Source: Adenophora triphylla var. japonica (lineage: Eukaryota; Streptophyta; Magnoliopsida; Asterales; Campanulaceae). Taken from it: DNA of 64,000 nt. The stretch spans positions 310,001 through 374,000 of the forward strand of contig JAFEMH010001473.1 of the NCBI GenBank assembly GCA_022495995.1, written 5' to 3'. Below, in pieces: positions 19,968 through 62,621 of the stretch; position 1 is the stretch's first letter; every line of letters begins with the position of its first letter. The translations under genes and the position numbers were made by a program. The notes beneath the pieces were generated by a model. The model was given only the letters and a program-made list of their open reading frames with translations, was not told where the DNA came from and did no database searches.

Positions 19968-21429
19968 TGTAAGTACTTCCGAACACACGGGAAACACCGC
20001 AGACTCACAAACGCAGTCTCGAAGACCCGTGACATTCAAAAACACTCTAAAACCCCCAACCAAACCAAGGGAGGGACCTTTCTGGGCCAAAAAGGGACAA
20101 AAGGACCTTCTGGGATTTTTTCAGAAATTGGAAGAGCATAGGTGGTCCGTACGGACCTCTTTGCTTCAATGATTACTGAATCCCCTTAAAGTCCAAGTTA
20201 TTCCCTCAAATCCCGGAATGCATCATTACTGAAATGCATGGTTGGTCCGTACGGACCTTATTGCATGACATATTGGTCCGTACGGACCTTCTTGTCACCA
20301 GACACCATAATTGCTGAATCTTCTTAAAGTCCACTTATTCCCTCAAATCGAGAAAAACCAAAATCTCAGATTACCTAGAAGGTCCGTACGGACCTTCTTG
20401 CACAAAATCTGGCACTATAAATAGAGGGATCCCCCTCCATCATTTCACACACCTCCCTCTTCTCTCCTCTCCCCCCAGCCTTCTGGTATCCCTCTAAGTC
20501 CTCTTGAGGCACTCCCGGCCCCTTTCGGATCCTTCCGAGGCCTTCCGAGCCCCCTTGCGGTGCTCCGAAGCCTCTCCGAGCGCTCCCGCGATGCTCCCGC
20601 GCTGCCCCGAGGCACTCTTGAGGTACTCTGAGGCCCCTCGTGGTACTCCGAGGCCTTTCCTGGTCTTTCCCAAGGCGTCCCGGCTCTTTTCGAGTCAAAC
20701 CAACAACTCGAACCCATGCCGAACCTCTGCCCGAACGATCCCTGCGATCCCAACGAACGCCGAACCTCTGCCCGAACGATCCCTGCGATCCCAACGCACG
20801 CCGAACCTCTGTCCGAGTGATCCCTGCGATTCCTACGCACGCCGAAACTCTGTCCGCAGACAACCGGCTCATCCCGAAGCAATCCCGGTCCGTCCCGGAA
20901 CAATATTCCATCCTCAAACACTATTCCCCCGCGGAAGACAGACACGAACCAACATTGGTAAGGCTTCCTTCCTACACTATTTCAATACATTTCAATAAAG
21001 CAGTGTACAATGTAGACATCTGACACAGCATGCATTTTTAAAAGCACATACACACACACAACAGATAAAGAATATTAGGGGTACCGAAAGACTCGTTTTT
21101 ACGAGGCGACTCGGGTGAGCTCAAAGATTCTAATATTCTCTTCCCGAGGAGTCATCTGACCTCCGAACTCAAAAATCTCATCACACAACAAAAAACAGTT
21201 TATTTTTAAACTGATGCCCTTTTTCAATGTTTTGGGCTTAATAAAAATGGCATGGCGACTCTACAAGCAAAAAACACAGCGAGACATTCTCCAACACCGC
21301 AAAAGCGGAACGAGCCAGATGCCGGGGCGCGAACGCGCTGCCTATCGGATCCGGGCGACTTCCCGAACTGCGAGCGAAATGCGAGATGCCGGGGGACCCC
21401 GCGCGCGAGCCGGATCTCGAGTAATTTCA
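19968..21429 (+). repeat. 5' LTR of element X
   Basis: Starts TGTAAGTACTTCC, ends ATTTCA; 1.46 kb. U3 has four perfect GGTCCGTACGGACC palindromes and a TATA box. Downstream, at 20718-20860, is a 41-bp tandem repeat of about three and a half units (GCCGAACCTCTGC...). The long open frames on both strands in this GC-rich part are repeat artefacts. Confidence 0.85.
20144..20424 (+). promoter_or_regulatory. LTR promoter of X with four identical palindromes
   Basis: GGTCCGTACGGACC occurs at 20144-20157, 20244-20257, 20275-20288 and 20381-20394. All four are followed by a T-rich tail of the type TTNTTGCA. The last ends 20 bp upstream of CTATAAATAG (20415-20424). Confidence 0.75.
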
Positions 21430-21430
21430 G

Positions 21431-21449
21431 TTGGCGACTCTGCTGGGGA
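21431..21449 (+). other. Primer binding site of element X
   Basis: TTGGCGACTCTGCTGGGGA one base after the LTR end; one change from the consensus. Confidence 0.7.
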
Positions 21450-22771
21450 GATTTTGTTTTAAAAACTTTTAAACAAAACAAAATTTTTTTAAAACAATGA
21501 TGAGGGTCAAACTTTCATTCTACCCCTTCTCTTTAACTATTGTGTGTGTGTGCATGTGCTTTACGTTTTTATTTTACAAAAAAAAAAATACAAAAAAATG
21601 CATCAATATACATCTGTGTACATACATTTAAAATTCTTCAAAAACTTTTGTTCTACTCAGAAAAAGAATTTTAGAGACCGCACACTACTCGCATTGCTGC
21701 CTCGGTACACCGCACGTTACTCGCACTGCTGCCTCGGTTACACCGCACGCTACGCGCACTGCTGCCTCGGATACACTGCACACTGCAAACCTTAACCCGG
21801 GGTGGTCTTAGTTGCAGTTTGTTTGGCCTTCCTACGCCTCTCGGACGTGCATGAGATCATCCTAAACATCCCGTCCTAGCCATACGTCAACCCTGCACGT
21901 TTGAGTCTTGAGTCACACTCTGTCCAGACCCGGTTGGTTTTTACCCAGTCCGTGTCATACAAGCCTGGTTACATATCCCATGCCGGCCATTTTCTGAGTC
22001 GAAGCTCGGAACTCAAGATCCCTTGCGTAAGCAAAGCGATGAAAGGTCATGCTAAAATCTTGACCTGATCTTGATTTTCCGAAGCTACACCCAGACGATG
22101 TTCTGTCCCGGATATACATCCATGCCCACATGACACCATGTCATCAAGCCTTTAATACGTCAGCCATGACGATATGACCCATGCCAATGCCTAACGTCAC
22201 AGATCCCTTGCGCAAGCAAGGTAAAGAGAGGTCATGCCGAACTCTTGACCTGATCTTGACTCAATGGCTGGCTCGGTTCACTATTCACATGGCTAACGCA
22301 TTAAAATGAACATGACAGGCTCGATCCATAGGTTCGGTTTTTTATTTTAGGCCGGTGGAAACCGCTTGCCCTATAGGACCCTCGTCCGGGGCTGTCCACC
22401 CTGGGATGTCGAAATACGGGTGCAAAACGAGGGGCTTATAGCCGCACATATGGTCTCCTCAGACCCAGGAACTAGCATAGTTGCGAAAAAGAAGAGCAAT
22501 CTTTTCCAACCTACCTAGGACTCTGAGAAAACACGTTTTAAGTAAATTAAAACAACGAAAAACAAAAAAAATAAAAGAAGCGAAAACCGCATGTCACGTG
22601 AGCTTTTCCCCTTTTACCCCGAACGGACTTCCCGTGTCTAAACCTTTCCCATCACCCCCTCCAGCGAACCGAGAGTGGTTGAGAATACCCGGGAGCCGCC
22701 TTTTCAGTATCGAGGTCACAAGGTCCAACAGCCCTTCCAGTTCAACGGTCCGCACTGTCCGCTACTCCCCC
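21450..22771 (+). other. Leader of element X
   Basis: Non-coding 1.3 kb. At 21686-21785 are three copies of a roughly 35-bp GC-rich repeat (CGCACTGCTGCCTCGG). The conserved structured hairpin is at 22372-22440, with outer arms TATAGGACCCTCG and CGAGGGGCTTATA. The conserved GTTGCGAAAAAGAAGAGCA block follows. No gene. Confidence 0.65.
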
Positions 22772-28503: not shown

Positions 28504-28970
28504 TCATTCCGCGCCATCTGCGCTTGTCCCCTCGCCATTCTTCCCTCGTCCCCGGCGAGTCTTCTTTCGCTCCACGCGAGCCATCTCTGCGTCTCTCAGT
28601 CCAAGATTAGGGGTCCTCCCCGTAGAGTCAAACAATCCAGCAGCTCTCAGGGCTTCATTCGTCCGTGCTTCGGCTCGGATCTCCTCCCTGCGAGTCTTCA
28701 AAAGAGGACCTCTCTCCGTCAGTCGGTCAACTCTGGTCTCGTAGTCAAACAAAGTGTCTCCCGTCACATCCTGAGGGTCAGACCAGGCTTCGGCACTCCT
28801 AAGGCAATAGCTACTATGGCAATCCAGCCCCAGAATCGCTCCACGCCTGCTCCCCAAAGCCGCTTGGGACTGCCCAACACGCTGCTCAGACCAAGCCAGG
28901 TACTGGGTAGTCAATATGACACTCTCCCGACGTCTAAGGAGCACCACAAGAGGGAAAGCGGAATACTTTC
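28504..28970 (-). pseudogene. C-terminal part of the antisense DUF7745-like gene of X
   Basis: Continuation of the gene that starts at 62130, separated from it by the insertion of E. The frame matches across the single copy of the 5-bp duplication. It encodes RRRESVILTTQYLAWSEQR, then charged sequence (REEIRAEARTNEALRAAGL) and a basic tail (RKKTRRGRGKNGEG). The corresponding part of E reads SRKSTILTTVYLDWYERE ... KRKNTRRGRGKGKK, so the basic tail is conserved and could act in nuclear localisation or nucleic-acid binding (inference). A TGA falls in frame at the insertion point. Confidence 0.8.
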
Positions 28971-30773
28971 TGTGAATGTGTGCCCAAATTGTGGAATTCA
29001 CGCGAGTTTGAAGACATCCGGTTTAATTTGAAAAAACGGAGTTGCCACGCCATTTTGATTTCCTCAAAACTTTGAAAAAAAGGATTTTATGGGTTCGGAG
29101 GTTAAGTTACCCCTTGGGAAGAATGGATCGTCGTTCACCCAAGGTGCCTTGCCATAGCAAGTCTCCCTAGATTCCGTTTATTTTGCTTACTTGCGTGCTT
29201 TCTTGTGTGCATGTGTTTGAATGAAAGGGGAGGGAATGTCCCAAGTTGTCTTCCGGACGTACAAACCATTTATTGGTTGTCGCTCGAGATTTCTTGGATT
29301 TTATGTATTCGGGATTTTGATCCCGTCCTCACCTTGGACTTGTGATCATCGCATTTTGACCTCGGGACTTGCGTGATCGAGAGAAGGACTCTCTTTTATA
29401 GCCCAAAAATGAGGTTCTTTAGGAAGGAATGTCCTTAGCCCATCAATCCTACACCTTAAGACGATCGAGCTTATATGAATGCTTCATGCTCGTCTTAAGT
29501 GATAATTGGAGATATAGGGTTCAAGGTTGTCCCTTTCTAAAGAGATTATGGAACCTTTAATGGAAGAAACGATGTAAAGATAGGATCTTTACACCGGTCC
29601 GTTCCAAGGTTGCTAATGGGGACATGGGGGAATGCATGTAAAAATGACATTTTTAGTGAAAAGATGACATTTTTTTGGGTTGCAAAGGATGCTTTTTTTG
29701 GTTTGCAAAGGATGCATTTTTATGTAAAGACATGATTTTTATGCAAAGGATGCATTTTGATGTAAAGAAGTGATCTTTATGCAAAGGATGCATTTTTATG
29801 AGGAAATTGGCATTTAATATGCAAAGGATGCATAAAGATTGTATTTTGAAAAGCAAAGGATGCATTTTTATGATGAAGGAATGACCTTTAATGCAAAGGA
29901 TGCATGAAAATGGATTTTAGGTGCAAAGGATGCACCTTTTATATAAAGACATGATTTTTATATGCAAATGATGCATTTTGGATATAAAGATTGCATTTTT
30001 ATGAGCAAATGATGCATAAAGATGGTATTTTTATTGTAAAAGGGGGGTTTTAGGTGCAAAGGATGCACCTTTGAGTATAAAGATTACATTTTTAATGACA
30101 AATGATGCCTAATTTATGGAAAGGGGAGAAGGGGGTATAATAAAGATATGATCTTTAATGAAAACTACCAAGTCCCAAGCAAAGATAATAACAATATATG
30201 AATGCAATGAGCAATCTAATTCACATAGAGCAATTAAAATGCAAGGCAAGGGAGTGAGAGGTTACCAATGGTGGCCTCTTCTTCTTTGGGTTGAGCTAGG
30301 TGGAAGGACCAACTTTGGGATCTTCAAGGAGGAGGGAGGTGGCTTCTTGGCTTGCTTCTTCAACCTTCTTGGATTTCCAGCAGTATTTGAGTGTATTGGG
30401 ACTGAATATAGAGTGTATTGTGTGTGTTTTTCGTCTTTTTAAAATGGGTAGAGGAGGGCTCTATTTATAGGCAGTCTGGATAAGACCAATGAAGCCGTGC
30501 GGCCAGAGATCCTTGGCTAATGCAGCCGTGCGGCATTATCCCTTGTGACTCAGCATGTTTCTAGAATCATGCAAGGTGGCAATTCTAGAACCTTTTCCAA
30601 ATTAAGAAAAATGTGTTTCTTAATTGGTAAGCATTCCCTTCAGCCCTTAGATGATTTGGAACTGTTCCGGAATTGTTCCGGAACTCTAGGAAAGTCCGGG
30701 GAGTTACCGGGAAATTTACCGGAATTGCCGGGGAAATTAACCGGAAGGCATGAGCCAGATTTGGGTACTTACA
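28971..30773 (-). repeat. 3' LTR of element E
   Basis: Identical in length to the 5' LTR. The R/U5-like part (about 29650-30110) contains some fourteen imperfect copies of GCAAAGGATGCAT with variable spacers. The TATA box is at 30461-30470 (minus). No gene; a 94-codon open frame present in both LTRs is not conserved in sister elements. Confidence 0.95.
30461..30534 (-). promoter_or_regulatory. LTR promoter of E with two palindromes
   Basis: TATA box CTATAAATAG (30461-30470, minus). GCCGTGCGGC at 30494-30503 and 30525-30534, 24 and 55 bp upstream in element sense. In the 5' LTR the sites are at 60798-60807 (one C-to-T change) and 60829-60838, with TATA at 60765-60774. Confidence 0.7.
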
Positions 30774-32246
30774 GAAGCCCCTCGGCAATGTCACTTGCAG
30801 GGCGAGTGGGGTTGTCGATAGAAAAGGATCCAATCTGGCGAATGCCGAGACGGATCGGGTGACCAAAGTGGTCAAGTGGCTGAACCTCTGGAAGGCTACC
30901 TACGTATCCCGAGTGGGAATCAAGCCAGGCCGTAGTTCTGAAGAGATCCTCTGAGGAATAGAGAAGAGAAAACTGGTCTCTTGATGGGGAAATAGCAGAG
31001 AAAATGACCTAGGAGGTCAAGCAATTGATCCTACTGGGGATATGCTAGAAGTGCCCAATGTGGTCGGATGTCAAGACCTTTATGAGGGGCTATTTCATCA
31101 CTGAGGAGCGACGAAGGGATAAGGTGACCAATGTGGTCGAATGGCTGGACCTTTTATAAAAGGCTACCTACGTATCTCGGAGGAATCAAGCCTTGATCGT
31201 AGTTCAAGCATCACTAGATAGGTTAGGAACGATGTCTAGGATCCTTGAAGGTTTTGACAATTAATGGAGGTTGTCACCTGATTGACAATTAATGGAGGTT
31301 GTCACCTGAGGAAACTAGAGCTTACGTCACTATCGAGGAGATAGCTTAAGTCTGAAGAACTTGAGCGTACTTCACTATCGGTGATAGAGGTAGCTAAAGT
31401 TCGGAGAACTTGAGCGTACTTCACTATTCGTGATAGAGGTAGCTTAAGTTTGAAGAACTTGAGCGTACTTCACTATCTGTGATAGAGGTAGCTTAAGTTT
31501 GAAGAACTTAAGCATACTTCACTATCGGTGATAGAGGTAGCTTAAGTTTGAAGAACATGAGCATACTTCACTATCGATGATAGAGGTAGCTTAAGTTTGA
31601 AGAACTTGAGCATACTTCACTATCGGTGATAGAGGTAGCTTAAGTTTAGAGAACTTGAGCATACTTCACTATCTGTGATAGAGGTAGCTTAAGTTTGGAG
31701 AACTTGAGCATACTTCACTATCGGTGATAGAGGTAGCTTAAGCTTGAAGAACTTGAGCATACTTCACTATCGGTGATAGAGGTAGCTTAAGCTTGAAGAA
31801 CTTGAGCATACTTCACTATCGGTGATAGAGGTAGCTTAAGTTTAGAGAACTTGAGCGTACTTCACTATCTGTGATAGAGGTAGCTTAAGTTTGGAGAACT
31901 TGAGCATACTTCACTATCGGTGATAGAGGTAGCTTAAGCTTGAAGAACTTGAGCATACTTCACTATCGGTGATAGAGGTAGCTTAAGCTTGAAGAACTTG
32001 AGCATACTTCACTATCGGTGATAGAGGTAGCTTAAGTTTAGAGTTCTGACAATTCGGAGGTTGTCACCTAGCGTCATTCCGTTATAACGGAAGTAACGGA
32101 GGTGACTGGGGAAGAAAGCTTATTTGCTTAAGAGGTAAGGGATATCTTTTGAAAACAACGTTATCTTGGTTAAAAGATAACGAGAATTACATGCCCAATT
32201 GGAAAGTCCAGGGGTAAAAAGGTAATTTCTGCTCAGAGCGAAAGAG
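30774..32246 (-). other. 3' untranslated region of E with PPT and direct repeats
   Basis: Immediately next to the 3' LTR (element sense) is GCCGAGGGGCTTC, the candidate polypurine tract. It contains pyrimidines, and the same phrase occurs at the equivalent place in F. Two copies of a structured block (arms CTACG/CGTAG) are at 30897-30938 and 31164-31205, each preceded by GGTGACCAA-type sequence. Then come the 49-bp array (31356-32041) and 200 bp without visible content. No gene. Confidence 0.6.
31356..32041. repeat. 49-bp tandem repeat, 14 units
   Basis: Fourteen units of exactly 49 bp plus a degenerate leading unit. Each can fold: outer arms ACTTGAGC/GCTTAAGT (one G-T pair), inner CTATC-GGT-GATAG. 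Units 6-9 and 10-13 show the same order of variants, so a block of four units (196 bp) was duplicated. Tandem repeats in the 3' UTR of Ogre/Tat elements are known as a source of satellites. Confidence 0.95.
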
Positions 32247-32317
32247 GCCGCCCGGCATGAGATGGGGGCAAAAGAAGCCATACGGCTAGAAGTCTGATTT
32301 TTCCATATTATTTAAAA
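32247..32317 (+). promoter_or_regulatory. Promoter of the antisense PMD gene of E
   Basis: GCCGCCCGGC (32247-32256) and GCCATACGGC (32277-32286), variants of the E LTR palindrome with the same 30-bp spacing, then a TATA-like TATTATTTAAAA (32306-32317). The ATG at 32430 follows 113 bp later. Confidence 0.6.
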
Positions 32318-32429: not shown

Positions 32430-35041
32430 ATGGATCTGGAGGGGAACCCAGTGCCGAGGCAAGCTAGTAGGAACATCTCCGCGGCCGCGAGAAGGAGGAG
32501 GAAGGAGCTTGTTCGGACGGAGAGGAAGTATGACTTCCATACGCCTCCATCGGAGCTCTATCCGGGGAGAAGGGAGCATAAATCAACAAACCCTCGATCG
32601 GTTGGGGTAAGCGTTCTTAGTTTGCTCAATTCCGTCGATTTTGATTGAATTTTGATTGATTTAGGGCTCGACCCGAGTTTTAGGAATTTTTCAAATTTTC
32701 CTAGGATTTTTGGATGATTTTGAAATCTTGATGATTAACCTATGAGGCTAAAAAGATGAAAGAATATGCATGTGCAATTTATTTGACAAATAATGAGAAT
32801 GACCCATCTTTTTCGAAAATAAAGTAAGAGAAATAATTGTCTAAAATGTGACGGAGTCCTCGCATGTGCTAGAACTAGGTCAATTTTTGATTATGGATGA
32901 GAAAACGGGATTTTGGATGATGAAAAGGATTCATGCATGCCATTTTTTGAGAAAAAATTTAATGCTTATATGCAGATAATTTTTGAAATTTGTGATTTTG
33001 TGCTTAGGAAAGCAATGTGCTTGACATGATGTGTTTCAAGTGATGAAAGACACGTTTTCGATGCAAATGATGCTTGAAAAAAAATTTATGAATGCTTTTC
33101 TTTTGAAAATATGTGCACTCTTCGAATATATGCATGCTTTTTTGAAAAAGACTGACACATTTATTTTTGGCTGTGCTTGTCTACAGGAGAACAAGTCTAG
33201 AGGGCCTTCGGAGATTGCAGTCAGGCTATGGGAGAGGATGCCTGATTTTGAGAAGAATGGGGCGAACCCTAAGCAGCTGGTGAGGGCTACCGGCTTGGAT
33301 TTGTTCATTGAGGCTATCGGCAGAGGTATTCACATTACCTCTAAGAGCAAGGGATTGGTCCAGGCCCTATCTGAGTTTTGGTGGGACACCACCCACAACT
33401 TTCATCTTAGCTGGGGGGAGCTGACGGTGACTCCGGCCGATTTCACTGCTATCACAGGCTTACAGTTCACCGGGAGGCCTGTGACTTGGAGGGACCATAT
33501 CACTGCCGAGGAGTTTAGAGCTTTGGTTGGGTTTGAGCTGATTCCCAAGGGGCTTAGAATGGAGACGAGGAACGTCGAGGTGGCAGTCCAGAACTGCATA
33601 TGGGACTTTGCCGCTAGTGAGGTGACTGCCCACTAGCTTGCTAGAGATTTTATGTGGTTGATGCTGTCAGTCACCATCTTTACCAATTCTGGGACTCTGG
33701 CTATGACTTGCCTCCTCGACTCTCTAGAGGATGTTGATGGGATTGGGACGGTCTCGTGGGGCGAGGCCGGATTGGCGGAGCTCTACTTTTCTTTGGATAT
33801 GTACAGCCGTAACAAGGCTGCCTCCATGGATTGCTTCTCCTTTGCCCTCGAGGTAGCATCACTTTCTTTTCTCTTTTACTTTCTGTCTTTGAGACTTTTA
33901 TGAGAGAAAAATGACCCTTTTGATGTTTTGAACATGCAGGTCTGGTTTTGTGAGGTGACCAGGTTCATTCCGTGGAACCAACAGAGCGATGTCACCATCT
34001 TTCCCGCTATGATCCGCTGGAGGGGAGATGCGAGAGATAAGTTCACTAGGAAGACCCGGATCACCTTTGACTACAAGATGGTGAGGCCAATTATCAACAA
34101 GGATGGGCACGATGGAGTGGACTTCTACCCGTGGGGCAGGTATCCGGAGATTTTGCTAGGAGAGGCCGTGGAGGCAACGAGGCAGAGGAGGTGGTTGACT
34201 GGGCTGACATGTAATGTCATTTATCTGGGGGACCGATTTTCCAGGCAGCATGGCCATGTCCCTCCATTGGACGCCATTACTCCTCAGGATCCTCCAGCAC
34301 GGATGCTACAGTCCAGGGATTGGCAGGCGGATGAGATAGAGAGGTATCAGGCAGGCGTGGCCGCCGAGGAGTACTTTGACATGGATACCCCATATGCTGT
34401 GTTTGTGGAGCAGCGACTGAGGACGCCACAGAAGCTAGTGAAGCTGGCGGTCACTCAGGGATATGGGGAGGATGAGCCTTCTGATTCGCCGATCCCTCCT
34501 GCGCACCTTTCATATGTGGTCCACGGAGTACCGAGGAGGTTGAGGATACCTGTCCCCGATGCTAGGGAGCCCCAGTATACCTTGCCGCCAGACAGCACAG
34601 TAAGTACACTTTAGGGTCTTTTCCCTCTTTCAGATTTCTTTGCTTTTTGCAATTCTGAGATTTTCTGAGATTTTCTTCTCTTTTTCTCAGGTTCCAGCTC
34701 GCACTTACGACAGGTTGGTCAGGCAGAATAGGGGCTGGAAGGATATGTGCCGGTCCCTTCTGAGGAAGCTGGCCTGCACTTCAAAGGCGGCAGTGGACGT
34801 ACAGGAGCCCGGGCGCAAGAGAAGGCATGTCGGGGGCACAGCGTCTACCTCATCGGCTTTGGAGTACTCTTCCAGTGCCATGCCTCTAGGGCGAGGACCC
34901 AATGCTGACATCTTGGAGCAGCTGGCTGAGTATGAGCACGACAATGTCCACCTTTCTGATGTGAGCGACACGGAGGACTTGATGAGGGAGGCTAGCGTTT
35001 ATGAGCTGAGCAGCGACGAAGAAGAAGGATCGGAGGCCTAG
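32430..35041 (+). pseudogene. Antisense plant-mobile-domain gene of E, four exons
   Basis: Exons 32430-32606, 33187-33852, 33940-34599 and 34691-35041 are all multiples of three with GT-AG introns (580, 87 and 91 bp), giving about 617 codons. Exon 1 is basic (ARRRRKELVRTERKY). Exon 2 carries the PMD signature (FWWDTTHNFHLSWGELTVTP, then FTAITGLQFTGRPVTW). Exon 3 begins VWFCEVTRFIPW and contains YLGDRFSRQHG. Exon 4 ends in an acidic tail (YELSSDEEEGSEA). The family includes MAIN/MAIL1, host proteins needed for transposon silencing and meristem maintenance; copies in retrotransposons are known, function unclear. One TAG at 33634-33636, probably from CAG, breaks exon 2; otherwise the frame is open. 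It has its own promoter upstream and reads opposite to pol. Confidence 0.85.
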
Positions 35042-35394: not shown

Positions 35395-35474
35395 GCCGTG
35401 CGGTCTGGACCTGAGGGCAAATGAGGCCGTGCGGCTTACAGTCTTGTCTGGACTGGTTATTTTCAGAATAAAAC
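35395..35474 (+). promoter_or_regulatory. Promoter of the antisense DUF7745-like gene of E
   Basis: GCCGTGCGGT (35395-35404) and GCCGTGCGGC (35426-35435), both preceded by AAATGAG as in the LTR copies (AATGAA), followed by a weak TATA-like AATAAAAC (35467). The ATG is at 35574. Confidence 0.6.
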
Positions 35475-35573
35475 CAAGGCTTGGCCATTTCATTTCATTT
35501 TCAACTTAGACTTGTCCCAACTGTTCCCAGAGCACATATTGGACCTAAAGACACCACCTTTGATCATTTTGCG

Positions 35574-37076
35574 ATGGAGAAGCCCGTTAGATTGCAAAGG
35601 GGGAAGAGAGACCGCTTTCTATCTGATCTTCAGTTTTGGGTGAGATACAACTTTCAATCTCACAAGGGGTTGCTTGATTCTACCTTCAAGATCAAGTCTT
35701 TATGGCATTTGAGGGATCTCCCGCCCGATTGGGACCTTTTGAGAGCAGCAGTAAAGTTTTGGGACGTCCGGAGACACGTTTACTGCTTTTGTTACAATGA
35801 GATTGTCCCAACGCATGAAGACTTTCGAGCCTTGATTGGGGGTCCAAAAATTGAGGCTATATCGATTCCGCTGATTGAAGACGTGCCGGTGGAGGCAAAA
35901 CTTGCATCTTTTCTGCAGATTTCTCTGGGAGAGGCTGAGGAGATGATGATAGCCCCGGATAGGATTGACCTTCCTGATATCCCGGGCAGGTTTGGGTCTC
36001 CGGCTATGGCTGCGACCACGGTGGCTATGGATGCCTTTATCCTCTGCGTATTTTCTTCTCTGTTCACCGCTGAGTCCGTGGGGATCTGTCATGGTGGTCT
36101 CTTGGACATGGTCAGAGATTGCAGGGCTGGGAAGGACATTGTCCCACTGGTTTTGGGTGAGACCCTCCATAGCATTGACAGGATGGCTAGGGGAGACCAT
36201 TTCATGAGGTCTGGGTGCCCAGTTGTACTGACTTTGTGGCTGTAGGAGAGGCTTGGGGCTTTGCCAGGGGCTTTGCCAACTCAGTGCCCTTGGGTGATTT
36301 CTCGGAGAGGTGCACCTCGACAGCAGGACCAGGGTAGCTCGGAGCTGATGATGGCTAGGTTATCCACTTCGGACATCCGCTGGTGGGTACCTCATTGGAG
36401 GTTGCAGACCAGGAGGATATTTCAGGAGTCCTACGTAGTGAGGGTTCCAGGGTTTTGCTGGTCGTCCTTCTATATACCCTGCTTGGTATCCAGGCAGTTC
36501 GGGGCCGTACAGGAGCCATTGGGCGATTGGGAGGACATCCGTACCATGGAGGTTGTGCCATTTGATATGAGGGATCCAGCCAGCTTTTCATTCTTCTCGA
36601 GGGCTTGGACTTATGCTGCTTTTCCACCCAGGGCTATCTTCAGGAGCAGGAAGAGTACCATCTTGACCACTGTCTACTTGGATTGGTATGAGAGGGAGAT
36701 GGGAGCGACTCAGGTCACATTGGGGGAGAGACATTAGGCTTTATTGGGAGCTGACTGCGACTCGAGTAGGACTCTGAGGGAGACTGAGGCTAAGGCGAGT
36801 TGCCATAACCAGTCGGGTGACCTGATCAGAGATATGGAGGCTCGATACAAGAGATTGTTCGAGGTCGCTCCTTTGACTGAGGCTCAGAGAGAAGAAGTGC
36901 GGACTCGTGCTCGGGTAGAGAGGGCACTTATTGACACGGGTTTGATAGAGGCTCCAGTGAGGATACCTGAGATCGGAATGAGGGAGACCAACATTATAGA
37001 GAAAAAGAGAAAGAACACTCGACGGGGTCGAGGTAAAGGGAAGAAGACCAAAGAAGACTCAGCGAATGACGACTGA
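35574..37076 (+). pseudogene. Antisense DUF7745-like gene of E
   Basis: A single frame of about 500 codons from ATG 35574 to TGA 37074-37076, broken by TAG at 36243 and 36735. No intron is needed. The N-terminal part (LWHLRDLPPDWDLLRAAVKF, then HVYCFCYNEIVPTHEDFRALIGG) matches what I remember of the plant DUF7745 family, a relative of the mobile domain common in retrotransposons. The middle has DIRWWVPHWRLQTRRIFQE and WSSFYIPCLVSRQFG. The C-terminus is helical and charged and ends in a basic RKNTRRGRGKGKK stretch. The gene lies downstream of the PMD gene on the same strand, 0.5 kb apart, and converges on integrase. Function unknown; nuclear location is an inference from the tail. Confidence 0.8.
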
Positions 37077-40943: not shown

Positions 40944-40990
40944 ATGTCGTACGACATGGGGAGGTTCCCAGGCAGTTTTAATTAAAACCG
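40944..40990 (+). promoter_or_regulatory. Promoter of the antisense PMD gene of F
   Basis: A perfect ATGTCGTACGACAT palindrome (40944-40957), preceded by CTTCTGGGA as is one LTR copy (39256-39264), then TTTTAATTAAAAC (about 40976-40988) as a possible TATA. ATG at 41107. Confidence 0.6.
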
Positions 40991-43889: not shown

Positions 43890-43994
43890 ATGTCGTCCGA
43901 CACGGGGCTTCTTGGGACCTTTATGTCGCACGACATAGAGAGTACGTGGGACGGAGTTTCTTGGTCGGCAAGTTTCAAAGCACATTATAAAAGG
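43890..43994 (+). promoter_or_regulatory. Promoter of the antisense DUF7745-like gene of F
   Basis: ATGTCGTCCGACAC (43890-43903) and ATGTCGCACGACAT (43923-43936), with GGGGCTTCTT between them as also found beside the LTR palindrome. Then a clear TATA box ATTATAAAAGG (43984-43994), 99 bp before the ATG at 44093. Confidence 0.72.
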
Positions 43995-44092
43995 CGGATT
44001 TGGGAACAAGTTCATTCCAAAGAAACCTACATCAGGCGTCGAGTTTGTCTTCCACCTCAAAATTAGCCCCAAGATTTGATCATTGGTCCAAA

Positions 44093-45659: not shown

Positions 45660-46225
45660 GATTAGGCGACCAGTCATTGTATCCCTTGTTGCCAACACAG
45701 ACAATTTAGATGCTCTTCTTAAAAGATATTATTTTAGCTAATGTTAATGAGTCGAGAGTAGACCGTGCTTGAACTCATCAATGAATGTATTAATGTGATG
45801 AAAGTTGAAATTACTTCAAAACATAATCAAGACACATTTTGGTGATCACAAATACAACTGTTTGACAGGATTTGGTGATTTTTATGTTTTTTAGACCGAA
45901 CCGCGAACGGCTGCCTACGTTCCCCTTTTACAGATTGGACTGAGGGGCTCAGGTCTCCGTAGTTCGACCCAATTACCTTTGTGTTTAAGAAAGGGATAGA
46001 TAGAAGGGGGACAAATGGTGCAACCCTGTTTTTTACCTAGACCGCCCATTTTTAGGGTTTTCAGCCTAGTTGGGTATATTCTTTAGCACCTAGCGCGCCC
46101 TTTGTTTTGCACGGACTGCCTTTTGAGAGGTTTTCAGTCTCGTCTGGGTACATTATTTTCGCGCTTTTTGTTGTTGTTTTTTTTTCTTTATCTTTTCTTC
46201 TTCTTTTTTTTTAGAGGGGGAGACT
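45660..46225. other. Convergent spacer of F with conserved hairpin
   Basis: Block at 45914-45964 (CTACG / CGTAG arms, CCCC / GGGG inside), then the CTAGACCGCCC...GGGTTTTCA phrase also seen in E, then T-rich sequence. Probable 3' ends of integrase and antisense transcripts. No gene. Confidence 0.5.
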
Positions 46226-52115: not shown

Positions 52116-52116
52116 C

Positions 52117-53845
52117 TGAATGAACGCTCGCCCGAAAAAAGAGAGAAAGAAAAAATAAATGAAGGTTTTTTTTGAATTCTTTCTCTTCCCTTTGTCTTTT
52201 TTTGTTTTATTTTGATTTTGAAGCGGAAAAGAGAGTTCTCGGTTTGTTTTGGGAGTCGCCACGCCATTTTTAGAGGAAAACATTGAAAAACCTAATTTTA
52301 AGAGATTTTGAGTCAGGAGTGCAGTTACGTGTTGGGAAGAACTAGAGAGTTCACCCAACACGCCCCTTTCGGGACTTTCAATCAACATTTGGACAAATAT
52401 GGACATTCAAAATGTGTGTGCGATGTGTGTAAACAAGTAAAGTGTGCAAGCCTTAGATTTCATTAATGGCATGGAACTGAATACAACTTGCGAGCCATGA
52501 TAGGGGGCCGCACCCTTTTTACACGTGATATCTTTTATCACAAGGCAGAGGTTTTGAGATAGATTGTCCCTTACAGAGGTAAAGCTACTCGAGAAATGAA
52601 AAGACATTATTTTGCTCATTTAGGACACTATTTAGTGGTCTAGAACCCAGTTTGGGGTTGATGGGAGTGGACAAAGTCACGATAGGCTTTGTCGACACGG
52701 ATGTCACATGACATAGAGTCTTTTGAAGTCTTCTATGTCATATGGTGATCCTCTTCCGTCAAGTAGGTTGCGCCCAAACTGAGTTTAGGCACCCAAATAG
52801 TGGCTTATGAGCCAGAAGATGCTTAGGTAGGCTTTGAGTCACGAAGGGATAGGCCTAGTAGATTCTGAAGTCCAAGAATGGCTTTGCAGCCTTCTGGGAG
52901 TCCCATGTCGTATGACACAGGGTCTCCATGGAGACTTATGTCGCACGACATGGGGAGCTGTTTCGGTGCCCTTGATCTGTTTGGTTCCTCCTTTGTTCCC
53001 CAAGCAAACCAAGCATATTTAGCTACCGTAGCGGTAATATGACAATAATATATGAGTATAATGGGAGGGTCACATGGCTTTAGTGGCCAAAGTGTGATAA
53101 ATCACATGATTTTGGCCACTTTGAAGTAGCCATCACCTCCTAACTCCATGCAAATACGTAAAGATTGAATCTTTATTGATCCTAAGATGACCAAATGTCC
53201 AGATCTGAGGTGGGGAGAAGTGAATATTGAAGATTCACTTCTCCACCACCTTTGTCATGCAAAATCCCAATTTCTACATGGTAAGAGAGCAAGTATGCAT
53301 GCAAGGTATATTTAAAGACTTTATTTAAAGGGAGAGAGAGGTTTAGTGTCTACCTATTGTAGTCCACGAAATAGAATCACCAATAGTATGGTGTCTACCC
53401 CTTCAATCACCACCAAAGGAAGCTTCTTGGAGTCTTGACCTTGAAGTATGTGTGTGTGAGGAGGGAGGTGAGTGTGTGTGTGTGAGAGAGAGGGAGAGAC
53501 TCTATTTGGCAAGAGTTTCCCCTATTTTACTGATATTACTCTCAGAATTTGACTCTCACTTTGGCTCTCTTCCTTGCCTCCTCAAAATGATCAGCCATGC
53601 CTTCTATTTATAGGCATCCTGATGGGGCTTCTTATGTCGCACGACATAGGCAGTTAAACCGCCTTAGTGTCCCTTGTCGGACGACAGCGTACAACTTTTG
53701 GCCATAATGGGCCGAGTGGCTGGCAGGCCCAATGGATTGGTGGGCTGCTGGGATTTTTGGACTCTAATTGCTTCTTAGCAATTTGTGTAAGCCCAAATTT
53801 AATTAAATTGAATCCAAAACTTGAGTTCGGATCGGGGTACTCACA
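52117..53845 (-). repeat. 5' LTR of element F
   Basis: Pairs with 38482-40214. Begins (minus) TGTGAGTACCC at 53845 and ends CATTCA at 52117. TATA at 53604-53613 with ATGTCGCACGACAT 20 bp upstream. No gene. Confidence 0.95.
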
Positions 53846-53850
53846 GTAGT

Positions 53851-56260
53851 CGACTGCCACTAGCACGAATTCATGCCCATTGCTTCCTGCCGGGGCTATC
53901 TTCCCTATCACGTCAATACCCCAAGTTGCAAACGGCCAGGGAGTCGTCATGCAGTACAGGTCATGAGGCGGGAGATGGTTGAGGTTGGCAAACCGTTGGC
54001 ATTTGTCGCACGCTCGGACATGCTGAACACAGTCTGTCTCCATGGAAATCCAGTAGTAACCCATTCTGAGGATCACTTGCATTAGGGCTCTAGCATTCAT
54101 ATGAGGACCGCAGGGACCATTGTGGACTTCAGTCATCAACTCTTTGGCCCTTTCTTGAGTGACGCATAAGAGGAGTGGTCCTTGATACCGCTTCTTGTAC
54201 AAGTTGCCTCCTAGAATGACATAATGGGAGGCCAACCTTTTCAGGGCTTGCAAGCTCTTGGCTTTGACACCTTCTTTTGGTCTACCTTCTTCATCATTGA
54301 AAGCTGTCTCTCCATCTTTGAGGAACTGGTAAATTTGATTGTACCACGGTTCCTTGATAGGCTCGGGTCCCAGGTCTACTTCACAACAGAAAGCTGGGGC
54401 CTCTCTTCTACCCACTTTGAAGGGTTTTATAGCTTTTCCCTCGGGGATCTCTACCAGTGAGGCTAAAGTAGCAAGGGCATCTCTGAATCTGTTCTTTTCT
54501 CTTGGCAAGTAGTGGAAAGTCACTTCTCTGAACTGTCCAGTCAACTCCTCCATATGGGCATGATACCGCTGAAGATTAGGGTCTACAGTCTTCCATTTAT
54601 TGGAGACCTGGTTGATGATCAGGGCTGAGTCTCCATAAACTTCGAGCTCCTTGACATTCCTTTCTAGGGCAGCCTCCAAACCAGCGATGCAAGCTTCGTA
54701 CTTGACGACATTGTTCGTGGCAGGGAAGTTCAGCTTGAGGGCTATGGGTGTATGCTCATCTTTCGAATCGACCAGTAGCATCCCTACGCCATTTCCTCTT
54801 TTGTTAGCAGCTCCATCAAAGAAAAGCTGCCATCGGTTTTCAGGCTCGACTGCGAAGATCCCTTCATCTGGGAATTGGGGTTCAGGCCCACGGTCCTCAT
54901 TACTGGGGAAGTTTGCCAGATGGTCTGACAATGCTTGACCCTTGATGGCCTTTCTGGTCACGTAGCTGATGTCGTACTCTGCTAAGAAGAAGGACCACTT
55001 TGCTAGACGCATCGAGAGGGAAGGCTTATCGAAGATGTACTTGATGGGGTCCATTTTTGAGACCAAATTCACAGGGTGGGCTTGCATATAATGCTTCAAC
55101 TTGCCGACTACCCAGACCAGTCCTGCACAGGTCTTTTCACATGCGGAGTAATTGAGCTCACTTCCCTGCAGCTTCCGGCTGACAAAGTAAATGGCATTCT
55201 CTACCCGAGAGTCCTTTTTCTCCTGAGCAAGCATAGCCCCAACTGCCGTATCAGTGACAGTGAGATAGAGCAGAAGAGGTTTCTGTCTATGTGGGGGGCA
55301 TAGTACTGGAGGATGTACTAAGTATGCTTTGATCTGGTCAAAGGCATCCTGGCATTCCTCGGTCCACTCTGTATCTACATTCTTCTTCATGAGCTTGAAG
55401 ATGGGCTCGCACATAGTGGTCAACTGGTTGACGAAACGGCTGATGTACTGCAGTTTACCCATAAAGCTCTTGACTTCTGTCTGAGTTTGAGGTGGCCTCA
55501 TGTCCATAATGGCTTTGATCTTTCGGGGGTCGACTTCGATACCTCGCTCCGTGACCATATACCCAAGCACTTTTCCCCTTGTCACTCCGAAGGTGCATTT
55601 GGCAGGGTTTAGTCTCATGGAATGTTGTCTCAGCCTCTCAAAGAACTTTCGCAGGTCAACAAAGTGCTGTTCGTCCTCGCCTTTGGAGTGGATTATCATG
55701 TCGTCTACGTAGACCTCAATCTCCTTGTGGATCATGTCATGGAAAAGCGCGGTCGCTGCCCTTTGATAAGTAGCCCCGGCGTTCTTGAGCCCAAATGGCA
55801 TTACTGTATAGCAGTAAGTTCCCCACGGCGTGGTGAAGGCTATCTTTTCTTGGTCTTCTTCGGCCATCTTGATCTGGTTGTAGCCTGCAAAGCCATCAAC
55901 GAAGGATTTGACTTCGTAGTTGGCGGTGGAGTCCACCAGGATGTCTATGTTTGGCAAGGGGTAGTTGTCTTTGGGGCTGGCCTTGTTCAGATCCCGGAAA
56001 TCTACACAGCAGCGCACCTTCCCATTGGCCTTGGTGAAGGTCACAATATTGGATAACCATGTCGGATATTCGATGACTCTGATGAATCCTACCCGCAGTA
56101 GCTTCTCAATTTCTTCTTTGACCTGTAGAGACCACTCTGGCTTGATTTTCCTCAATTTACGCTTTGCTGGCTTAGCATCGGTGCTAGAGGGATTCTGTGC
56201 TCCACTATTGAACCTGTCTAGCCCCGGCATATCCTTGTACGACCACGCAAAGACGTCCAT
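53851..56260 (-). pseudogene. RT-RNase H-integrase N-terminus of E
   Basis: About 800 codons uninterrupted. RT: FAWSYKDMPGLD at the start, CVDFRDLNKASPKDNYPLP (residues 85-103), MPFGLKNAGATYQ, the active site YVDDM at 184-188. A connection/RNase H-like segment (AIYFVSRKLQGSELNYSACE, about 356-375) follows. A second RNase H, as in Tat-lineage elements, has FFDGAANKRG (480-489), YEACIAGLEAAL, YGDSALI and NRFRDALATLA. The integrase finger (HNGPCGPH ... CDKCQRF, 713-756) and the first catalytic Asp (WGIDVIG, 780-786) follow. At residue 805 the frame runs into the LTR of F; the rest is at 38481-37706. This is the only intact RT in the window. The domain order matches known Ogre/Tat pol. Confidence 0.95.
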
Positions 56261-57536
56261 GTATTCTCGACCAGATTAACCCGATCTGTCCCGTTCAACC
56301 CCCGGAAGAAGTTTCCGATCTGTGTCTCTTTAGGTTCCTTGACGGTACCCAAGTTCACACTTGTCAAAACCTCCTCGGCGGCTTGGGCCCGGTTTTCCTC
56401 TTTTACGTAACCACCTTAAAGATTTCTTTAATGTATTGTTCATTTAGTGTGTTTGCATCTTGTTCAAATGATTCATTATTAACTGTTGTTAAGTTTTGAG
56501 TTAATTTATCATTTGTTAAGTTGGCAATAAGGGGATAATCAGAAAGATCTGTCATTTCATTCAAAGCAAGAGGAAAGATGACATCGATTACATATTGATA
56601 ATCCTCAGGCGTGAGGCCTTCAGATGACTCAGAGGACTGGAATTCAAAGATTCCTGACTCAACTGACTTTGGACCCTACTGACTCTGGACCCTACACTAC
56701 TTATTGACTTGAGGGTGTTTGACAAGGGTTGGACCGGGATCTCACTCCTTCCTGCTGTTGCCCTGGGGAGTAGCAGTCTTGCCAGCGCTCTTCAGAAAGT
56801 TGGAGACTTCAAATTGATCAAAAACTTGCAGGAAATCATTGACAGGCCGGTACCGTGGAAAGATGGTGAGGGGAGCTAGAGTAGCTTGATGCAATCTCTC
56901 GGCGAGCTCGTCCGTGACAACTGGGCTCATTGACTGAAGAGTCTGGCTCATCTTATCAATGCACTGCTGATAACTCATTTTCTCTTTTCTGATCTTGGAC
57001 ACTACGACCTTATCAGTATAGCCAACAGGATAGTTGGCCTGGATAATGCTGATGAAGTCTTCTTCAGAAGGGATCTTAATTCTTCCTTGACTGGCTACGT
57101 ATTCAATGGGCTTTCTGTATTCTGCTTCTAAATCTGCTAACTTCTCATTGAATTTTACGATGGCCACAAATTCAGCACTTTCTGCTTCAAGAGGGTCACC
57201 GACCATAGGGGTATCAGGCTGGACTGTGCTTTGAATGATGGGCTCCTTGGCGGGCTGTTTGGCATAACTGACGTAGTAATCAAACTTGCCGGAAGGCTCC
57301 CCTAGAGTTCCGACGCTCTTGTCCCCGGCTTCATACCTTTCCTTTAATTTCTGCTGCGTGGACTTCCTCTTCTTCTTCTTTCTTGAAGGAGCGTCTTCAT
57401 TAATCCATTCTTGATACTCGTATTCCAGACAATCCTCACAGTCGCATACATCATACCAGATATGGGGCTTGGGTTAAACTGGGATGGCCTCTCCGACTAC
57501 TTGGTCATTACCATTGTTGACTACCACGTTGGCCAT
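56261..57536 (-). pseudogene. Short N-terminal frame and linker of E, no Gag or protease
   Basis: Candidate start MANVVVNNGNDQVVGEAIPV at 57536, then a stop and PHIWYDVCDCEDCLEYEYQ (about 57470-57415), which in A lies after Gag. The KFDYYVSYAKQ segment and one linker module follow (57206-56742: VAIVKFNEKLADLEAEYRKP ... EEDFISIIQANYPVGY). Decayed sequence to 56280 contains NRAQAAEEVLTSVNLGTVKEP. No Gag core, zinc knuckle or DNGS protease motif is present, so about 2.5 kb of the usual polyprotein is missing. Confidence 0.75.
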
Positions 57537-59253: not shown

Positions 59254-59272
59254 TCCCCAGCGGAGTCGCCAA
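59254..59272 (-). other. Primer binding site of element E
   Basis: In element sense TTGGCGACTCCGCTGGGGA, two bases after the LTR end. Confidence 0.72.
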
Positions 59273-59274
59273 AC

Positions 59275-61077
59275 TGTGAATGTGTGCCCAAATTGTGGAA
59301 TTCACGCGAGTTTGAAGACATCCGGTTTAATTTGAAAAAACGGAGTCGCCACGCCATTTTGATTTCCTCAAAACTTTGAAAAAAAGGATTTTATGGGTTC
59401 AGAGGTTAAGTTACCCCTTGGGAAGAACGGATCGTCGTTCACCCAAGGTGCCTTGCCGTAGCAAGTCTCCCTAGATTCCGTTTATTTTGCTTGCTTGCGT
59501 TCTTTCTTGTGTGCATGTGTTTGAATGAAAGGGGAGGGAATGTCTCAAGTTGTCTTCCGGACGTACAAACCATTTATTGGTTGTCGCTCGGGATTTCTTG
59601 GATTTTATGTATTCGGGATTTTGATCCCGTCCTCACCTTGGACTTGTGATCATCGCATTTTGACCTCGGGACTTGCGTGATCGAGAGAAGGACTCTCTTT
59701 TATAGCCCAAAAATGAGGTTCCTTAGGAAGAAATGTCCTTAGCCCATCAATCCTACACCTTAAGACGATCGAGCTTATATGAATGCTTCATGCTCGTCTT
59801 AAGTGATAATTGGAGATATAGGGTTCAAGGTTGTCTCTTTCTAAAGAGATTATTGAACCTTTAATGGAAGAAACGATGTAAAGATAGGATCTTTACACCG
59901 GTCCGTTCCAAGGTTGCTAATGGGGACATGGGGGAATGCATGTAAAAATGACATTTTTAGTGAAAAGATGACATTTTTTTGGGTTGCAAAGGATGCTTTT
60001 TTTGGTTTGCAAAGGATGCATTTTTATGTAAAGACATGATTTTTATGCAAAGGATGCATTTTGATGTAAAGAAGTGATCTTTATGCAAAGGATGCATTTT
60101 TATGAGGAAATTGGCATTTAATATGCAAAGGATTCATAAAGATTGTATTTTGAAAAGCAAAGGATGCATTTTTATGATGAAGGAATGACCTTTAATGCAA
60201 AGGATGCATGAAAATGGATTTTAGGTGCAAAGGATGTACCTTTTTTATAAAGACATGATTTTTATATGCAAATGATGCATTTTGGATATAAAGATTGCAT
60301 TTTTATGAGCAAATGATGCATAAAGATGGTATTTTTATTGTAAAAGGGGGGTTTTAGGTGCAAAGGATGCACCTTTGAGTATAAAGATTACATTTTTAAT
60401 GACAAATGATGCCTAATTTATGCAAAGGGGAGAAGGGGGTATAATAAAGATATGATCTTTAATGAAAACTACCAAGTCCCAAGCAAAGATAATAACAATA
60501 TATGAATGCAATGAGCAATCTAATTCACATAGAGCAATTAAAATGCAAGGCAAGGGAGTGAGAGGTTACCAATGGTGGCCTCTTCTTCTTTGGGTTGAGC
60601 TAGGTGGAAGGACCAACTTTGGGATCTTCAAGGAGGAGGGAGGTGGCTTCTTGGCTTGCTTCTTCAACCTTCTTGGATTTCCAGCAGTATTTGAGTGTAT
60701 TGGGACTGAATATAGAGTGTATTGTGTGTGTTTTTCGTCTTTTTAAAATGGGTAGAGGAGGGCTCTATTTATAGGCAGTCTGGATAAGACCAATGAAGTC
60801 GTGCGGCCAGAGATCCTTGGCTAATGCAGCCGTGCGGCATTATCCCTTGTGACTCAGGATGTTTCTAGAATCATGCAAGGTGGCAATTCTAGAACCTTTT
60901 CCAAATTAAGAAAAACGTGTTTCTTAATTGGTAAGCATTCCCTTCAGCCCTTAGATGATTTGGAACTGTTCCGGAATTGTTCTGGAACACTAGGAATGTC
61001 CGGGGAGTTACCGGGAAATTTACCGGAATTGCCGGGGAAATTAACCTGAAGGCATGAGCCAGATTTGGGTACTTACA
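59275..61077 (-). repeat. 5' LTR of element E
   Basis: Pairs with 28971-30773, same length, 23 differences by eye. TATA 60765-60774 (minus); palindromes 60798-60807 and 60829-60838. No gene. Confidence 0.95.
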
Positions 61078-61082
61078 CTTTC

Positions 61083-62130
61083 ATACCCTCAGAAAATACA
61101 AAAGAGCACCTGGAGCTGCCATACAAAGAGGAGCTACCTCTGTAGTAGCAAGGTCATCCTAGCCCAACAAAGGCTCCTGCTTCATCCCAAACTGCCGGGA
61201 AACAAGCGACGGAAAATAGAAGGAGGACCAAGACAAACCTGGAACTTTGACAACATAGGAGCCTTCCTGAAAGGCCCTCCTAGTCTCAATCCCCCAGTGC
61301 GGAACCCACCAACGGATCTGATGCGTACCAAGCCGTGCCATCCATCTCTCCCAGGCGGACTGATCCATATCTAACAAAAGAGGTCGCCGAGCAAACGACC
61401 ACGGTCTAAACAACGTCGAAGCCTCGGGCATGGCTTGAAGTCTCTCCCTCAGCCACAAGGTGAGCAAAGCGGGGCTTCCCCTTCTCATGAACCGATTCCC
61501 AGTCGCCAGACGGTCAATACCATGAAGAGTCTCCCCCAGCACCAACGGGACAATATCCTCTCCAGCTCTGTAGTGCCCAACCACATCTAGCAAAGCGCCA
61601 TCGCAAACCCCAAGGGAGCTAACCATGAAAAGCGTTGCTATCACGCACAAGGCAAAAGTATCCCACGAGACATCACTCTCATCATTAATCATAAACCGCT
61701 CCGGCAGCGCAGAAATGTCAATATGACCCGAATCAAGGATCATGCCCTGCACTTCTCCCAATGAAGTCCGAAGAAAGCCTGCAAGCTTCACGCTCACGGC
61801 AGCACCGCAAATCAAAGGAAGCGAGTTGGCCTCCACCTCCCGTCCTCCAATCAAAGCCCGAAAATCCTCAAACGTGGGCACCATCTCATTGTAGGAGAAG
61901 CAATACACATGCCTCCTAACATCCCAGAACTTTGCGGCAGCCCGCAACAATTCCCAATTAGGAACCAACTCCTTAAGGGACCAAACCGAGCAAAGTCGAA
62001 ACCTTACCTCAAAAGCCCGCCTCTGATGCCTCATACGGTGTCGTATCCACATTTTTAGCCGCTCAAGGAAGTGTGCTTGCCGCTCCTGCGAAAGCCTTGG
62101 CAAAATTCTTGGAACGGACGAAGAATCCAT
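61083..62130 (-). pseudogene. N-terminal part of the antisense DUF7745-like gene of X
   Basis: Starts MDSSSVPRILPRLSQERQ at 62130 and runs 324 codons to a TAG at 61159-61161, which in E is a Trp codon (GDWED). The frame then continues to the insertion of E at 61083, and the C-terminal part resumes at 28970. Signature: LKELVPNWELLRAAAKFWDVRRHVYCF and NEMVPTFEDFRALIGG; the centre has IRWWVPHWGIETRRAFQEG. Similarity to the copy in E is strong along the whole length. It lies downstream of the PMD gene on the same strand. Insertion of E abolished whatever function was left. Confidence 0.85.
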
Positions 62131-62621
62131 GGCAAAAATGGAGGTTCCTAGAGAAAATGGGGAAGAAAGCTCGAAAATGGCTGAAAATGGGGAGTGGGGA
62201 AAGTCCAGACATCCGGAAAGCCTTTATCCCTTCCCAAAAGCAAAGGTGATCCTTACGGACCTCTTTGCACCCCAAGTTGGTCCGTACGGACCTTGTTGCA
62301 TCCTGGGCCCATTTTCCCAGCAAACAGTACAACAACCACTATTCCCCGCAGGACCTTGCTCCAAACTGCCCAAACCCTGGCCAAAGCCATTTCCGGCAAG
62401 CATACACTACCCACAGACGCACTCCCAGCTCTCGTGGCATGCAAAAATAATAAAATAGCAACAATTCCTAGGACAACTCTCGGGAATCACGAAATACGGC
62501 ATTACATCTTAAAATAAAATATTTTGCAGTGCAAATGCGAATGGTTTATTACAGGTACATATAATGCCTGTTGCTAAACAAAAAAAAAAGAGGATATGAA
62601 AAGAGGGAAAGCAAATGAGCC
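62131..62621 (-). promoter_or_regulatory. Promoter region of the antisense DUF7745-like gene of X
   Basis: Perfect GGTCCGTACGGACC at 62279-62292 and GATCCTTACGGACC at 62248-62261, each followed by the T-rich/TTGCA tail seen in the LTR copies. A TATA-like GGATAAAGG (62222-62230, minus) lies about 92 bp before the ATG at 62130. The rest, up to 62621, holds the 3' end of the PMD transcript and shows nothing else. Confidence 0.62.

Follow-up and report, generated by a model that had tools for sequence, protein, structure and literature searches.

What do the antisense open reading frames (ORFs) of plant long terminal repeat (LTR) retrotransposons do? We take up this question with a 64-kb stretch of the Adenophora triphylla var. 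japonica genome (contig JAFEMH010001473.1, positions 310,001 to 374,000; hereafter the window). The window holds nested LTR retrotransposons: element F, on the minus strand, lies inside element E, also on the minus strand, which in turn lies inside element X, on the plus strand. In all three, additional ORFs encoding a PMD protein and a DUF7745-like protein are located between pol and the 3′ LTR, antisense to pol. Here, we describe short palindromes that occupy matching places in the LTR promoter and in the antisense-gene promoters of the families examined. They are probably operators for a dimer of a PMD-family protein that the antisense genes of the same family are predicted to encode, and such matched operators would be a candidate target for the antisense ORFs. 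The predicted operators of the window, to which no strand is assigned, are the following.

20144..20394: X LTR operators, four copies of GGTCCGTACGGACC (starts 20144, 20244, 20275 and 20381)
62248..62292: X DUF7745-promoter operator pair (GATCCTTACGGACC and GGTCCGTACGGACC), 31 bp apart
30494..30534: E LTR operator pair, two copies of GCCGTGCGGC, 31 bp apart
32247..32286: E PMD-promoter operators (GCCGCCCGGC and GCCATACGGC), degenerate, 30 bp apart
35395..35435: E DUF7745-promoter operator pair, 31 bp apart
40002..40015: F LTR operator, ATGTCGCACGACAT
39270..39316: F LTR inner operator pair, 33 bp apart, downstream of the LTR TATA box
40944..40957: F PMD-promoter operator, ATGTCGTACGACAT
43890..43936: F DUF7745-promoter operator pair, 33 bp apart

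Every site that a preliminary description of this DNA had listed was located where it had been placed, and the two sites preceding the E PMD gene are indeed degenerate, as it had said. It had also proposed that the palindromes differ between elements around a common CGNNCG core, and the sites are family-specific palindromes with the CG-NN-CG arrangement. The idea that they lie just upstream of the LTR TATA box holds for X 20381, F 40002 and the proximal E site, and needs correction for others: F 39270 and 39303 belong to the LTR and come about 660-710 bp after its TATA box, and X 20144, 20244 and 20275 lie further upstream, leaving 20381 as the only proximal site of that array.

Are these palindromes more frequent than expected by chance? 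The window contains 128 CGNNCG cores, and 11 of them form perfect 14-bp palindromes. Each of the 11 belongs to X or F and falls in an LTR or an antisense promoter, the count including those at 52938 and 53634 in the F 5′ LTR. In 200 dinucleotide shuffles, 14-bp palindromes with this core averaged 0.39 and never exceeded 2, so that the possibility, raised beforehand, of palindromes being no commoner than in shuffled sequence does not apply. The remaining 15 palindromic dinucleotide cores gave between 0 and 7 perfect 14-mers each in the window. A comparison that assumes no palindrome, that of the words common to each U3 and the interior of its own element, placed 14 of 17 shared 11-mers of X and 8 of 11 of F in the DUF7745 promoter; for E, no 11-mer fell at the operators and the operator was one of ten interior 10-mer matches. 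Between U3s and the antisense promoters of other elements no 10-mer was common in the window, and at k=9 there were one word for X with E, three for E with X and one for E with F.

The position of the sites with respect to the TATA box is also similar among elements. The centre of the TATA-proximal LTR palindrome lies 28.5 bp upstream of TATAAATA in X (site 20381, plus strand), 29.5 bp in E (minus strand) and 28.5 bp in F. In the antisense promoters, a TATA-like box is found at 26.5 bp for X DUF7745, at 27.5 bp downstream for E PMD (TATTTAAA) and at 28.5-29.5 bp for F PMD. Paired sites are separated by 31 bp in X, 30-31 bp in E and 33 bp in F. When element K, a mosaic found elsewhere in the genome and described below, is added to these three, spacing covers 30-34 bp, or about three turns of DNA, compared with 19-20 bp, about two turns, in a fourth family, H. 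Across X, E, F and K the LTR geometry is constant despite differing sequences.

Within each element, the palindromes of the LTR pair and of the DUF7745-promoter pair match at 26/28 columns in X, 19/20 in E and 26/28 in F, whereas the spacers of the same pairs match at 10/17, 9/21 and 10/19 (Fisher p of 0.009, 0.0003 and 0.002, respectively) and their 40-bp flanks at 34/80, 30/80 and 25/80. That palindromes match while spacers have diverged argues against a simple recent duplication. Short asymmetric flanks do accompany the sites on the antisense strand, GCAANRA before most X sites and AAWG before E sites. To the earlier remark that flanking bases match within an element it should be added that the orientation of these flanks is set by the element and not by the direction of transcription: being fixed relative to the element, they take opposite orientations relative to transcription.

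We then asked whether other copies keep the sites, using the genome to which the window belongs (2.48 Gb, 8432 contigs). The exact F palindrome occurs 7574+7611 times. A scrambled palindrome that retains the core occurs 20+22 times, and a reversed-pattern control 1+1 times; the TAC form of the F site is self-complementary and was counted on both strands. The X palindrome with its flank, allowing up to two mismatches, occurs 22540+22890 times, against 0+0. Copies of X, E and F keep their sites, rather than losing the pairing between LTR and antisense promoters that the preliminary description had reported. In E, the DUF7745-promoter site is present at 30 of the 30 loci listed, the window's own included, and the 31-bp pair at 29. 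In X, five of the eight first-listed loci have LTR arrays of two to four sites with a TATA box at the proximal site, and the other three (L004, L006 and L008) have a 31-bp pair without such a box. The pairs of L004 and L008 adjoin DUF7745 genes. The X PMD promoter is located outside the window, and L006 is taken as its putative counterpart on account of its position, its 5′ untranslated region (UTR), which is GA-rich as in the PMD genes of E and F, and its ATG, which opens a basic N-terminus behind a perfect operator pair; tblastn with X DUF7745 or PMD probes gave no match there. Among the matches listed for F, sites fall in 92 distinct places, and sets whose spacing fits LTR, PMD and third site occur on C1 (K), C6 and C8. 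The distance from PMD site to third site in these sets is 2970, 2974 and 2926 bp, respectively, against 2979 in the window.

A search of the genome with the Pfam DUF7745 model gave 118 scored matches out of 15523 candidates, and the 30 loci listed represent family H. Its palindrome, TCTCGNNCGAGA, is found upstream of the DUF7745 gene with at most one mismatch at 28/30 loci and with at most two at 30/30, and in 22/30 the sites form pairs 19 bp apart. We read the 6.6-kb stretches upstream of five of these loci (L039-L043). L040 showed sites of the TCTCGNNCGAGA type in neither the LTR nor the PMD promoter, and the other four have them in both. In the LTR, L041 and L043 match exactly, and L039 and L042 differ by one mismatch; in the PMD promoter, where a TATAAA-type box follows the site, the match is exact for L041 and L042, has one mismatch for L039 and is degenerate for L043. 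Where counted, that is in the LTR of L041, the PMD promoters of L041 and L042 and the DUF7745 promoters, pair spacing is 19-20 bp. The second PMD-promoter sites of L041 (ATACCGCGCGGTAT) and L042 (GATATCCCGTGCGGGATATC) have changed in sequence yet are still palindromic, as expected if dyad symmetry matters. Family H, with a palindrome of its own at the LTR, PMD and DUF7745 promoters, extends the pattern to a fourth family. A further H palindrome was seen downstream of the DUF7745 gene, on the pol side, in L010 (at 3201) and likewise in L012, L021, L025 and L031.

Element K (C1:919850-934037), which was retrieved as an F-type set of sites, is the most informative about what the operators go with. 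Three parts of it are E-like: the U3 portion distal to the TATA box, matching E at 83% over 168 bp, the region after U3 (92% over 206 bp) and the array of 49-bp tandem repeats (about 73%). The 46 bp that hold the TATA box and the proximal operator match F (87%). Operators of the F type occur three times in the K LTR at intervals of 85 bp, with 28.5 bp between the proximal one and the TATA box, and this 85-bp triple recurs elsewhere among the matches listed; F-type operators are also present in the K PMD promoter and in a third site, which has a run of about 25 bp in common with the LTR. When the E and K U3s are aligned, the distal K operator occupies the columns of an E operator, and the differences between them include changes mirrored from one half-site to the other (GCCG..CGGC to GTCG..CGAC), in line with recognition by a dimer. 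The K PMD protein is nearest to that of F, with 43% identity over 199 aa against 33% for E and 31% for X, and its N-terminal exon is 67% identical to F over 67 aa against 56% to E. No K DUF7745 was matched in L078 and L079 (4.3 kb), the search not extending to L077 (381 bp) or to 927451 to 928299. K therefore has F-type operators and an F-like PMD on an E-type LTR, and its operator follows the PMD gene rather than the LTR backbone. The proposal that sites and gene products co-evolve gains from K, where operator and PMD are of the same type on a foreign backbone, and loses from the comparison of F with H, in which motif similarity does not simply track DUF7745 similarity; a rule equating motif distance with protein distance was rejected on that comparison. 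The specificity of palindromes for elements has exceptions: K has sites of the F type, and so, with degenerate sequence, does the unclassified LTR at the left edge of the window.

The elements and antisense genes of the window are listed next.

28970..30773, minus strand: E 3′ LTR, 98.7% identical to 59274-61077
59274..61077, minus strand: E 5′ LTR; one operator, at 60798, reads GTCGTGCGGC
53657..56275, minus strand: E pol ORF, with reverse transcriptase and two RNase H domains, Tat-lineage Ty3/gypsy
31240..32176, no strand assigned: 49-bp tandem array, between the E LTR and the PMD promoter; also present in element K (L080 128-1706)
32430..35038, plus strand: E antisense PMD gene; PF10536 with 41.3 bits on 33025-33633 (cut-off 34.9)
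35472..37073, plus strand: E antisense DUF7745-like gene; PF24924 with 23.8 bits on 35472-36242, slightly below the cut-off of 26
38482..40215, minus strand: F 3′ LTR, nested in E, 97.6% identical to 52117-53846
52117..53846, minus strand: F 5′ LTR; operators at 52905, 52938 and 53634
41107..43497, plus strand: F antisense PMD gene; PF10536 with 65.9 bits on 41460-42200, later exons by homology
43991..45738, plus strand: F antisense DUF7745-like gene; PF24924 with 24.2 bits on 43991-44461, slightly below the cut-off of 26
61162..62223, minus strand: X antisense DUF7745-like gene, N-terminal part; PF24924 with 33.1 bits, above the cut-off of 26
62625..63911, minus strand: X antisense PMD gene, later exons, by homology to E and F PMD exons, with no Pfam match of its own

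E was assigned to the Tat lineage of Ty3/gypsy because its pol has reverse transcriptase and two RNase H domains; this dual RNase H (RT_RNaseH and RVT_3) was seen for E only. The E PMD gene consists of several exons or of broken frames, the part outside the Pfam match being delimited by homology to X, F and K, and its start, the first ATG past the operators, was picked by eye, as was that of F PMD, the ATG past its operator. The window copy of the E DUF7745-like gene, 54% identical to that of X, has in-frame stops, that of F has a broken frame, and in X the gene is interrupted by the insertion of E, which leaves its C-terminal part at 28510-28965 on the minus strand. PMD and DUF7745-like proteins look like mutual relatives, because they align over a conserved block with 11 invariant columns in five sequences. 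Further relatives were sought in several ways. No homologue of the X DUF7745 protein was found at an E-value of 1e-3 among 3227 candidates, viral contigs searched with E pol and with the PMD/DUF7745 alignment held no relatives, nor did prokaryote genome contigs searched with that alignment, and a PDB sequence search returned nothing meaningful. TRP28 (PF04195), the antisense domain of the Retand lineage, had no match among the window antisense ORFs scanned against Pfam.

Sites related to those of E and F were also observed in other elements of the window. At its left edge (1-967) lies G, an LTR of unknown class with a TATA box near 580 and two degenerate F-like palindromes (462-477 and 495-510) that are spaced by 33 bp and included in a 23-bp imperfect inverted repeat; over 58 aligned positions, G matches the third-site promoter of K at 78%. 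The older element A, on the minus strand, has degenerate E-like sites, GGCCGTCCAGCC and GGCCAGACGGCC, at 7284 and 7376, upstream of its LTR TATA box, and both sit within AAAACAGGCC...GCCAGTT. In A and in another element, B, the part of the LTR that follows the TATA box holds arrays of palindromes 16 bp long (CGAATCGTTTGATTCG and variants), at 12316-12550 and 6639-6780, the unit of the B array being about 37 bp. Outside the window, a PMD gene at L074 (G000:C1837, reverse strand 2115-2360) is preceded by about five near-palindromes of the GTCGGCATTGGCAATGCCG type upstream of its start. Since this element has a PMD gene and no palindromic CGNNCG operator, it was not counted as a family.

How might such a system work? 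A PMD-family protein produced from the antisense gene would bind each palindrome as a dimer, beside the TATA box, and two dimers would act jointly on paired sites. Once bound next to TFIID, the protein would raise the output of both the LTR promoter (gag-pol RNA) and the antisense promoters, creating a positive feedback that may also protect the CpG-bearing sites from silencing, and with differing operators the families present in one genome would not switch each other on. Of all these steps, the choice of activation over repression is the least certain. We prefer PMD to DUF7745 as the predicted binder, since in K the system persists with a PMD gene where no DUF7745 was detected; alternatively, DUF7745 might serve as a partner or as a second regulator, or might itself be what binds the sites. 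A bolder reading of the same sequences, to which we would give slightly less than even chances, is that plant Tat-type elements carry lambda-like private circuits made of an antisense PMD-family repressor/activator and a family-specific dyad operator, the two being swapped together when a family, or a mosaic such as K, passes to another type of control. Under that reading, PMD might be, again with a little more doubt than belief on our part, a modular, fast-evolving domain that reads palindromes.

Several observations weigh against a circuit in which the PMD protein of each family acts on operators of its own. Geometry has exceptions, because for F PMD a box at 57.5 bp is as good as that at 28.5-29.5 bp, the F DUF7745 box (TATAAAAG) lies 56.5 bp downstream, the best box of E DUF7745 is weak and at 36.5 bp, and the H LTR sites are about 155 bp upstream of TATAAATA and not 28 bp. 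Retention of the sites in E is partly plain descent, since the copies are 93-96% identical to that of the window, a caveat that applies to what was said above of other copies. Within families, conservation of the palindrome relative to its flanks was not significant (p=0.31 for E and p=0.20 for H), and neither was that of CpG positions alone (p=0.08 for both). No DNA-binding domain was recognised in either the PMD or the DUF7745 protein, and an AlphaFold2 model of X DUF7745 built on a five-row alignment had a pLDDT of 37, useless for assigning a fold. K is a single locus read closely. The F-type site is not exclusive to F, being present in K and as a degenerate pair in the G LTR, and with the E-like sites of A this means that site types extend beyond one element each. 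Half-sites of F and H differ at about one position although their DUF7745 proteins are only 32% identical. Finally, the single strand orientation of the F sites could equally reflect copying.

That last point leads to the least probable of the rival explanations, in which copying alone, without function, would account for the pattern: LTR sequence would have reached the antisense promoters by template switching or gene conversion, with the palindromes as passengers. It fits the single orientation of the F sites (66 of 67 pairs within 6 kb on the same strand among the sites listed, which are not independent), the window flanks, which behave likewise, and the run of about 25 bp common to the K LTR and third site. 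Spacers and flanks have nevertheless diverged where palindromes still match, the position relative to the LTR TATA box has been kept though sequence changes, the change from E to K is mirrored in both half-sites, and the second PMD-promoter sites of two H copies changed and stayed palindromic. We thus take copying, by which the sites would have spread, as a plausible mutational route of change and not as the reason for their retention.

Host factors offer a rival account that we hold to be improbable, though less so than passive copying. Each family would have recruited a different factor, and LTR and antisense promoters would be co-expressed by tissue. Sites just upstream of TATA boxes resemble ordinary enhancers, and the F-like 33-bp pair of G and the degenerate E-like sites of the A LTR suit factors whose site types are not tied to a single element. 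Host recruitment has more difficulty with four families that have four palindromes of one CG-NN-CG architecture, each at the LTR and the antisense genes (counting the putative X PMD promoter), and it does not predict K, where operator type goes with PMD and not with the LTR backbone. A circuit of the same composition and opposite sign, unlikely to about the same degree, would make the antisense protein a repressor, holding down both the number of copies and its own abundance. The presence of the same sites before LTR transcription and before the regulator genes is what negative autoregulation would give, and the sign cannot be read from positional evidence; location upstream of the TATA box, and not over it or the start, and the stacking of four and three sites in the X and K LTRs would, however, suit activation better. 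An activating circuit run by the PMD-family protein of each family remains the explanation we prefer.

What would such a circuit mean? If real, it would explain how closely related elements are controlled separately in one genome, it would give a molecular activity to PMD, a domain also of the host silencing factors MAIN and MAIL1, and it would make available a large natural set of operators and regulators, side by side in one genome, for studying how DNA specificity evolves. We found no report of operators common to LTR and antisense promoters in the full-text literature searched, which leaves out most subscription journals, and the term DUF7745 occurs in no paper of that literature. Regulation of an element by its own antisense ORFs has been suspected before, with no target site named in the portions available of these sources (PMC7264820, PMC11963269). 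For antisense ORFs with TRP28 in the Retand lineage, the author suggests a DNA-binding regulatory role (PMC11963269). There too antisense ORFs are located between pol and the 3′ LTR, often together with tandem arrays; the domain is TRP28 instead of PMD/DUF7745, and the available sections mention no LTR/antisense operator (PMC11963269). MAIN and MAIL1, which have the same PMD domain family as the element genes, are needed for activating genes, fractions of which have a 'DOWN' promoter motif, and also for silencing transposable elements, and act with PP7L; they differ in being host genes that silence such elements, and direct DNA binding is not described in the sections available (PMC7156037).

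VANDALs are MULE DNA transposons. Their VANC proteins in Arabidopsis, which carry DUF1985 and DUF287, have been shown to bind family-specific motifs that evolve with the protein, and to cause demethylation (PMC5735166, PMC10398659). Both systems would join an element-encoded protein with short family-specific motifs that are present in the element's own non-coding DNA and diverge between families; VANC motifs are tandem repeats, and the word palindrome is absent from PMC5735166, whereas the sites described here are palindromes and predicted sites only. The preliminary description had cited VANC as a precedent. This suits the logic of the system and not the protein, as neither DUF1985 nor DUF287 was found in the five antisense ORFs scanned with Pfam at E-values up to 10, a range in which HMMER filters discard most very weak matches.

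The foamy virus protein Tas/Bel-1 is encoded in the sense orientation. It is a DNA-binding transactivator that acts on the LTR and on an internal promoter of the regulatory genes upstream of the 3′ LTR (PMC4929722). The elements described here have sites common to the LTR and to internal promoters, and one element-encoded protein would bind them in a comparable manner. Unlike that virus, they have two antisense genes, each with its own promoter, and palindromes that differ by family.

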